Positions 29,026 to 29,892 of a stretch of 64,000 nucleotides of DNA are shown piece by piece. The stretch covers positions 62,001 through 126,000 of the forward strand of contig OMSO01000001.1 of the NCBI GenBank assembly GCA_900313675.1, in the 5' to 3' direction. This DNA comes from an uncultured Fibrobacter sp. (lineage in GTDB: Bacteria > Fibrobacterota > Fibrobacteria > Fibrobacterales > Fibrobacteraceae). Each line of letters opens with the position of its first letter. Position 1 is the stretch's first letter. The notes beneath the pieces are model-generated. The model searched no databases, had not been told where the DNA came from, and saw only the letters and a list, made by a program, of their open reading frames with translations. The position numbers and the translations under genes are program-made.

Positions 29026-29044
29026 CCGCATTGAGCCACAAAAC

Positions 29045-29103
29045 CGGAATATAGCTCAGCCTGATAGAGCGCTTGCTTCGGGAGCAAGAGGTCGTGAGTT
29101 CGA
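29045..29103 (+). pseudogene. tRNA-Pro(CGG) copy disrupted in the T loop
   Basis: Bases 29045-29103 match the intact downstream tRNA-Pro from the acceptor 5' strand through GTGAGTTCGA of the T arm, with one change in the D loop (GATA for GGTA). There the copy is interrupted by a 100-bp insert (29104-29203). It resumes as ATCTCGCTA (29204-29212), and the acceptor 3' strand is lost to A residues. A functional tRNA cannot form. Confidence 0.85.
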
Positions 29104-29203
29104 CTGAAACGGCGATGAACGAAGTGAATACAGCCGATTCAGAGATTAAGCCAAAGGCTTAACCCGTAGGGCAAAAACCGTAACAAAGTTAGGTTTTTGT
29201 CTC
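29104..29203. repeat. 100-bp hairpin module, copy 1 (inside disrupted tRNA)
   Basis: Carries hairpins centred on GCCGATTCAG, TTAAGCC/GGCTTAA and AAAAACC/GGTTTTT. It is diverged from copies 2 and 3 but has the same length of 100 bp and the same flanks, TTCGA on the left and ATCTCGC on the right. Confidence 0.8.
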
Positions 29204-29253
29204 ATCTCGCTAAAAAATTTGCATTTGACCTTTAATTTTTCGTCTTTTTTAAC

Positions 29254-29261
29254 TATCTTTG
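29254..29261 (+). promoter_or_regulatory. tRNA-Pro promoter element
   Basis: TATCTTTG, identical to the Bacteroidota -7 consensus TAnnTTTG, ends 11 bp before the intact tRNA. A TTTGACC lies at 29225-29231 at about the -33 region. Confidence 0.6.
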
Positions 29262-29272
29262 AGCCACCAAAC

Positions 29273-29346
29273 CGGAATATAGCTCAGCCTGGTAGAGCGC
29301 TTGCTTCGGGAGCAAGAGGTCGTGAGTTCGAATCTCGCTATTCCGA
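29273..29346 (+). tRNA. tRNA-Pro (anticodon CGG)
   Basis: A full cloverleaf can be drawn. The acceptor is CGGAATA with TATTCCG and discriminator A, the D stem is GCTC/GAGC, the anticodon stem is CTTGC/GCAAG around loop TTCGGGA, the variable loop has five bases, and the T arm is GTGAG-TTCGAAT-CTCGC. The anticodon CGG reads CCG proline codons. The 3' CCA is not encoded. A terminator follows at 29351. Confidence 0.96.
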
Positions 29347-29350
29347 TAAA

Positions 29351-29390
29351 AACGAAAAAAGGACCCCTCAAGGGGCCCTTTTCGTTTTTT
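29351..29390 (+). terminator. tRNA-Pro terminator
   Basis: AACGAAAA with GGACCCC pairs with GGGGCCC and TTTTCGTT around TCAA, followed by T residues. It is nested in a larger inverted repeat of the tRNA T arm (29322-29340 with 29403-29422). Confidence 0.85.
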
Positions 29391-29434
29391 ATTCGGGATA
29401 ACAAGCGAGATGAGAACTCACGAAGTGAGTTCAA

Positions 29435-29534
29435 CTGAATCGGCGATGAACAAAGTGAATACAGCCGATTCAGGGATTAAGCCGCAGGCTTAACCCGTAG
29501 GGCAAGAACTGAAGCATAGCGAAGTTCTTGTCCA
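29435..29534. repeat. 100-bp hairpin module, copy 2
   Basis: Flanked by GTGAGTTCAA and ATCTCGCTATTCCG, that is, by T-arm and acceptor sequence of the tRNA. It contains CTGAATCGGC/GCCGATTCAG, TTAAGCC-gca-GGCTTAA and CAAGAACT/AGTTCTTG hairpins. It differs from copy 3 at two of 100 bases. Confidence 0.88.
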
Positions 29535-29553
29535 ATCTCGCTATTCCGATAAA

Positions 29554-29592
29554 AACGAGAAAGACCCCATATAGGGGTCTTTTCGTTTTTTT
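29554..29592 (+). terminator. Second copy of the tRNA-type terminator
   Basis: AACGAGAAAGACCCC pairs with GGGGTCTTTTCGTT around ATATA and ends in seven T residues. It follows the tRNA 3' tail of copy 2, and its arms differ from the first terminator by changes that keep the pairing. Confidence 0.8.
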
Positions 29593-29636
29593 ATTCGGGA
29601 TAACAAGCGAGATGAGAACTCACGAAGTGAGTTCGA

Positions 29637-29840
29637 CTACCGCGGAGCGGAACGAAGTGAAACGCGACGCGGGAGGCCTTGACCGTGCAAAGCACGGCAA
29701 GCCCGAAGGGCAAAAGTTGAACAAAGTGAAACTTTTGGCACTGAATCGGCGATGAACGAAGTGAATATAGCCGATTCAGGGATTAAGCCGCAGGCTTAAC
29801 CCGTAGGGCAAGAACTGAAGCATAGCGAAGTTCTTGTCCA
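29637..29840. repeat. Hairpin array copy 3, with a 104-bp extra block
   Basis: After GTGAGTTCGA there is an extra 104 bp with its own hairpins (ACCGTGC-aaa-GCACGG, GCCC-gaa-GGGC, AAAAGTT/AACTTTT). The standard 100-bp module follows at 29741-29840 and then ATCTCGCTATTCC. The remaining gap to the next gene (29855-29892) holds a CCCCGC palindrome. Confidence 0.85.
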
Positions 29841-29892
29841 ATCTCGCTATTCCAACCAGCAAGCAGATCCCCGCCTGCGCGGGGATGACATC

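Follow-up and report, generated by a model that had tools for sequence, protein, structure and literature searches.

What interrupts copies of a tRNA gene at one and the same position in a Fibrobacter genome, and is it recognised as DNA or as RNA? Three modules of 100 nt raise this question in the window, by which we mean the whole 64,000-nt stretch analysed, part of contig C49 of a 2.4 Mb assembly (78 contigs, 81% complete). The original prediction took the modules for a non-coding element targeted to the T loop of tRNA-Pro, or else for a structured RNA maintained beside that tRNA. Their placement at 29104-29203, 29435-29534 and 29741-29840 proved correct, since the same bounds were recovered by a covariance model of the module, hereafter core A (model R1). 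The identities also agreed, with copies 2 and 3 at 98% identity and copy 1 at 86%.

Architecture of the tRNA-Pro(CGG) locus

The anchor gene is an intact tRNA-Pro(CGG) at 29273-29346 (ARAGORN; Rfam, 68.2 bits), the sole RNA that ARAGORN and Rfam recognised in the region. This and the other features lie on the + strand, the terminators being listed without strand. Core A copy 1 (29104-29203; R1, 92.8 bits) is inserted at TTCGA|ATCTCGC upstream of this gene. As had been predicted, it is preceded by the first 59 nt of a truncated tRNA-Pro copy (29045-29103, by sequence comparison), comprising the 5' part up to TTCGA in the T loop and displaying 98% identity to the intact tRNA across those 59 nt in the tRNA search. 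The similarity between the two is visible as 97% identity of 29031-29103 to 29259-29331, and Rfam gave a tRNA match below threshold at 29045-29112. The sequence of the T-stem 3' strand ATCTCGCTA closes copy 1 at 29204-29212, the acceptor 3' strand having been lost. Upstream copies equivalent to copy 1 were found in four further genomes of the genus (L043, L051, L092 and L108).

The original reading of 100 bp as the full extent of the element did not hold. Copies 2 and 3 each occupy the interior of a larger fold that had been overlooked, a multi-hairpin unit of ~155 nt located directly 3' of the tRNA-Pro(CGG) terminator. After this terminator the unit presents the reverse-complemented tRNA 3' end, a hairpin that we call hairpin 0, the module, and the T-stem 3' strand with the acceptor, copied in forward orientation. 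In unit 1, which follows the palindromic terminator (29347-29391; stem at 29356-29383 on the minus strand, from sequence), the outer 5' arm (29394-29411; fold and inverted repeat) corresponds to the reverse-complemented tRNA 3' end and is predicted to pair with the outer 3' arm ATCTCGCTATTCCG (29535-29548; sequence and fold), a copy of the T-stem 3' strand plus the acceptor 3' strand. Enclosed by this outer stem are the separate hairpin 0 (29414-29432; fold and loop survey) and core A copy 2 (29435-29534; comparison, alignment and R1). Hairpin 0 reads GAACTCAC-GAA-GTGAGTTC, a copied T-stem 5' strand joined to its complement by a GNA loop, while the core comprises three hairpins plus a short CCC-GTA-GGG alternative. 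A terminator scan identified the unit's own terminator at 29559-29583, a diverged copy of that of the tRNA.

Unit 2 displays the same plan, with an outer 5' arm (29597-29613) and a GAA-looped hairpin 0 (29616-29634), both from folding, core A copy 3 (29741-29840; comparison and R1) and an outer 3' arm ATCTCGCTATTCC (29841-29853; sequence and fold). It differs by an extra related module, core B (29637-29740; R1, 34.9 bits), which stands in tandem with core A and immediately before it; closely resembling B cores are present in other genomes. The claim about the flanks was thus upheld on one side only. All three modules have ATCTCGCTA, from the 3' side of the T stem and acceptor of tRNA-Pro(CGG), after them, but GTGAGTTCGA does not directly precede copy 3, because core B lies between this copy and its left flank and it is core B that GAGTTCGA precedes.

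Units 1 and 2 are each predicted to form a single closed multi-branch fold, with z-scores of -10.0 and -10.4 in RNA folding; folded as DNA, the unit z-score is -7.9. Copy 1 together with its truncated tRNA, which is without the outer stem, reaches only -2.1 in RNA folding. At five loci (L037, L049, L083, L085 and L172) a separate hairpin insertion of ~115 nt (AAGAGTCAGCTTTCG...GTGTCACGAG) was observed in the loop of hairpin 0.

Distribution and attachment to tRNA genes

The tRNA query had a match in all 80 genomes of the genus, with a near-complete tRNA at 99% identity or more in about 70. A DNA similarity search detected the unit in 26 of the 37 genus genomes searched and in none of 24 others. 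Meanwhile, R1 matched in 75 of the 80 genus genomes and in 7 genomes from 4 other genera of the same family, with no match outside this family in a search of 168 genomes of the phylum at E <= 0.001. This genus-wide and family-wide distribution rules out a tandem amplification peculiar to one strain. Furthermore, a T-arm copy or remnant is kept at all 67 tRNA-Pro(CGG) loci with sufficient downstream sequence (at L071 and L097 the remnant alone was recognised).

The targeting of tRNA T loops was borne out when loci were fetched by R1 score alone. All 40 of these lay at T-arm sequence of tRNA-Ser(CGA), tRNA-Pro(UGG) or tRNA-Pro(CGG), including two at a contig end where the T-arm sequence alone remained; the module is thus not one that occurs mostly away from tRNAs. 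Likewise, of 147 R1 matches at 100 loci, practically all had T-arm sequence beside the core block. Among these matches, two or more cores can stand in tandem between the T-stem strands, and a small number of copies are truncated. The exact cognate T-stem 3' strand was found in 125 of the 142 R1 matches with a same-strand tRNA. All 10 bases of the 5' flank were found in 96 of the 142, the remainder being mostly one-base offsets or tandem cores in which another core stands between.

Specificity for tRNA-Pro, as originally proposed, was not upheld, as the core A fold is also found behind tRNA-Pro(UGG) and tRNA-Ser(CGA), and related cassettes are found behind tRNA-Gly and tRNA-Arg. Among ~46 tRNA kinds checked in one near-complete genome (G081), elements stood behind Pro(CGG) (three units), Pro(UGG), Ser(CGA), Gly(CCC) and Arg(UCU). 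The tRNAs used in other genera are Pro(CGG), Pro(UGG), Ser(CGA) and Gly(GCC). Whichever tRNA an element neighbours, the flanks are copies of that tRNA's T arm, and changes in tRNA sequence between genera are mirrored in them: genus g19, for instance, has GTGGGTCCGA-ATCCCGC both in the tRNA T arm and in the element flanks. Each unit is delimited by direct copies of the tRNA 3' end, forming a junction with a regenerated 3' end. Cores A and B were seen at tRNA T arms only. At L154, L166, L168 and L178 we also observed a tRNA-Ser-like copy 5' of an intact tRNA-Ser, with an altered anticodon loop and a core in its T loop; in L178 the changed acceptor strands of this copy still look complementary.

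The loci are modular. Behind tRNA-Pro(CGG), one and the same left flank and terminator lead into core A, core B or a third type, core C, depending on the genome, so that the three cores are exchanged at one fixed boundary. Tandem arrays reach up to five or six units (L090), and units of 162 nt are repeated in L006/L108. Upstream genes are conserved at 69 of 69 loci, and downstream genes are variable. L085 and L120 have gene-bearing segments interposed between consecutive ATCTCGCTATTCC T-stem 3' copies 0-4 kb behind tRNA-Pro(CGG), with core blocks at several segment boundaries. They contain a secreted-protein-like ORF and ORFs that we take to be FISUMP-like. These two related loci are the only ones with gene-bearing segments between the repeats. 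The occurrence of FISUMP-like proteins in the vicinity of related loci fits the genus name Fibrobacter. Among the tRNA-linked copies, no freshly mobile one with a matched empty site was caught.

Restriction to tRNAs does not extend to every core, as the related core C is a dispersed repeat found mostly away from them. Its covariance model (R2) matched in all 80 genus genomes, with at least 57 copies in the top genome among the matches listed. The contexts are varied, and for many copies no tRNA lies nearby, as was the case at each of the 14 non-array loci scanned. In the priA gene of G020 (L359:3001-3082), core C forms a precise in-frame insertion of 28 aa, and the G010 orthologue (L364) is uninterrupted; this is one clear case, and it concerns core C only. 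Several core C copies sit in duplicated 3' fragments of the upstream gene, an arrangement that resembles the tRNA case. For carB, core C was observed inside a second copy of the gene's 3' end just behind the intact gene (L327, L323, L322 and L325), and in L325 the two carB 3' copies can differ at synonymous positions. A composite repeat was also observed, consisting of a left flank ending TTCGCAA or TTCGCAG, core C and CTCCGAGCTGGGGCCCC, in many unrelated contexts (L334, L341, L343, L337, L346, L348, L349, L351-L355 and L358); the three copies scanned had no Rfam match.

Covariation, loop types and transcription

The compensatory changes expected of a maintained structure were found. We aligned 51 distinct core A sequences from tRNA-Pro(CGG) loci and applied the covariation test to a 16-sequence subset, in which 19 of 32 pairs displayed changes on both sides and 98.0% of cells were paired. 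Double changes occurred in 84 cells, against 24.3 expected by shuffling. Slid-structure controls were 22-47% paired, and shuffled controls were far lower except in the number of pair types. Across 132 distinct cores, all types included, there were 3725 Watson-Crick pairs, with 43 G.T against 17 A.C once one near-constant G.U pair is excluded. That G.U pair is present in all 51 sequences of the tRNA-Pro(CGG) core A set and in 106 of the 132 over all types. Palindrome correction by template switching was considered as the sole cause of the covariation and judged unlikely, given the constancy of the GNA loops, the unpaired GATT/AACCC positions and one G.U pair in core A at tRNA-Pro(CGG).

Alternatively, the units may be functional structured RNAs, transcribed from a promoter that escaped notice or through read-through of the tRNA, and would then act on the cognate tRNA via the T-arm complement. 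The inverted T-arm copy might, for example, alternate between pairing with its own 3' arm and pairing with the tRNA. This is the main rival to a DNA element, yet we regard it as unlikely. The strength of the compensatory change, the very stable fold, the element or remnant at every evaluable tRNA-Pro(CGG) locus (67/67) and the potential of the inverted T-arm copy to pair with the tRNA all speak for it. The invariant G.U pair and the excess of G.U over A.C are compatible with RNA as well, and mildly favour it over DNA. The cores have a covarying secondary structure in common with the structured RNAs of Rfam, but searches at gathering and relaxed thresholds returned tRNA only, with no other family at threshold.

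The hairpin loops argue for DNA. GNA loops were counted in 112 of ~123 cases for stem 1, in 118 of 119 for CCC/GGG and in 82 of 84 for hairpin 0. Among 39 distinct adjacent terminators, a GNA or GNNA loop occurred in one (Fisher p = 3e-35, stem-1 and CCC/GGG loops versus terminators). The loops of stem 2 and stem 4 are less uniform, stem 2 above all at tRNA-Ser. C(GNA)G is an extraordinarily stable type of DNA mini-hairpin, of which GCGAAGC is the classic case, and GNA loops are possible in RNA too. Such DNA mini-hairpins are discussed in PMC10527192. That the core hairpins are mostly closed by loops of the C(GNA)G type points to a folded DNA strand, and folded single-stranded DNA is probably the level at which the cores are recognised.

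The surroundings of the units also weigh against RNA. No promoter-like site was found for them, and only a few bases separate terminator and unit, leaving little room on the + strand, which makes a dedicated transcript unlikely. In addition, the final unit of an array is usually without a terminator of its own, the core types are interchangeable, the outer stem is poorly preserved in several genomes, and the loops are GNA triloops instead of the usual RNA tetraloops. Hence, the structured-RNA half of the original prediction could not be established, as no promoter-like site was found and loops of this kind lend stability to hairpins of DNA.

Recombinases, related systems and the nature of the elements

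No dedicated enzyme common to the carriers was found beyond XerC/XerD. Families of non-Xer tyrosine recombinases are present, but they are patchy or not integron-like. One of 351 aa (L284, L285 and L288, from G081, G000 and G029, respectively) is 98-100% identical in ~10 of the 80 species of the genus and 33-55% identical or absent in the others; it is probably a recently spread mobile element. The Y1 transposase (PF01797) occurs in 27 of the 80 genus genomes, with no match in near-complete array-bearing genomes such as G081 and G083. The lack of a shared enzyme beyond XerC/XerD, together with the unlikelihood of a dedicated transcript, leads us to favour the explanation that the modules are Fibrobacteraceae-specific, non-autonomous palindromic DNA elements whose T-loop lineage is maintained by tandem recombination. 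We hold this explanation with about even confidence. The cassettes look like small mobile or recombining hairpin elements, not like ordinary genes.

Under this explanation, members of the family would be gene-less elements of ~80-105 nt with several hairpins mostly closed by C(GNA)G. Cores A and B would form a lineage confined to TTCGA|ATC in the T loop, within second copies of the 3' end that a few tRNA genes possess. A working unit would read [tRNA 3' end - terminator - inverted T-arm copy - T-stem 5' strand - core - T-stem 3' strand], and the tRNA itself would stay intact because the interruption hits the duplicate only. Recombination across the repeated tRNA 3' end and terminator could allow tandem units to be gained, lost and exchanged. 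The same recombination might match the flanks to the resident tRNA and swap cores A, B and C at the fixed boundary. We infer that such homogenisation causes the tracking of tRNA sequence by the flanks, and that transposition or recombination is carried out by a host or foreign enzyme. Near-universal retention at tRNA-Pro(CGG) and the use of the same tRNAs across genera are not what one usually sees in a selfish repeat, and they may point to a function for the host.

The boldest alternative is a tRNA-based integron-like platform, in which the cores would correspond to attC sites (folded strands used by a tyrosine recombinase), the T loop would correspond to attI, and most cassettes would be gene-less. 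The attC sites of integrons are recognised by their fold, not their sequence (PMC2727003), and the likeness would lie in tandem cassettes at one anchor site, which here are predicted to fold. The fixed cassette boundary, the hairpins of single-stranded DNA type, the variable downstream genes and the gene-bearing segments of L085 and L120, with core blocks adjoining their boundaries, would fit such a platform. However, no integron integrase was found, the candidates scoring 44-73 bits (best 72.9) against the TIGR02249 cut-off of 265, and no recombinase besides XerC/XerD appears universal. Neither was a conserved attC core sequence recognised, the anchor is a tRNA T arm, and the cassettes normally lack genes, which were found in two related cases only. 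We consider this platform rather improbable. More doubtful still is a variant in which tRNA-anchored cassettes of single-stranded DNA, occasionally gene-bearing, are inserted at and exchanged on the T arms of particular tRNA genes by a non-IntI recombinase, perhaps XerC/XerD. If true, the tRNA-anchored cassette system would be another kind of integron-like platform, independent of the first and based on tRNA genes.

Least probable, and very unlikely in our judgement, is that the units are relics of tRNA-integrating mobile elements (collapsed attL/attR, with the hairpins as arm sites for an integrase since lost): crossover in the T loop and restoration of the tRNA 3' end are typical of integrases (Ms6; PMC1762012), and the direct repeats of the tRNA 3' end and the hotspot-like variable downstream region agree with it, yet relics should decay, whereas a covarying structure is conserved across the genus and recognisable across the family, one fold occurs with differing tRNA flanks (Pro and Ser) and related folds occur at Gly and Arg, and interior cargo is absent in nearly all cases. 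Islands and phages in tRNA T loops, such as mycobacteriophage Ms6 in those of tRNA-Ala (PMC1762012), share the T-loop position and the duplicated tRNA 3' end with our units. Unlike them, the units have no linked integrase or cargo, possess a conserved folded core and stand in tandem.

For the favoured explanation, palindromic DNA elements, the nearest kind that we found is the small palindromic repeat. REP/BIME sequences with their RAYT (Y1) transposases are dispersed palindromes thought to move as single-stranded DNA hairpins; in contrast, most of our element-bearing genomes have no Y1 match, and T-loop specificity is a feature of the elements described here. Rickettsia palindromic elements (RPE) are gene-less hairpins of 80-150 nt, present in many copies and several families and found in frame within protein genes. 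The RPE families are named in PMC2694212. The likeness to RPE concerns core C, not cores A and B: it is short, palindromic, gene-less and dispersed, and its insertion in priA is in frame. Unlike RPE, the Fibrobacteraceae elements are multi-hairpin structures with GNA loops, from a different phylum and probably unlike in sequence, and their cores A and B are locked to T-arm copies that track the resident tRNA.

The claim that no equivalent has been described held in Rfam and in the literature searched, where no Fibrobacter repeat of this kind was found. As far as we found, tRNA anchoring with host-tracking flanks is undescribed. Under the favoured explanation, the findings would bear on how tRNA genes turn into recombination hotspots, and on the use of covariation as proof of RNA function. 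If the structured-RNA alternative were true, the units would represent a new class of tRNA-paired structured RNA. If, on the other hand, the palindromic DNA element explanation is right, 80 species, several tRNAs and three core types would provide a naturally replicated system for the study of how folded DNA elements that lack an enzyme of their own move. It would also mean that, across an entire rumen-type family of bacteria, one repeat lineage docks permanently at tRNA genes, with borders kept the same as the host tRNA in each case.
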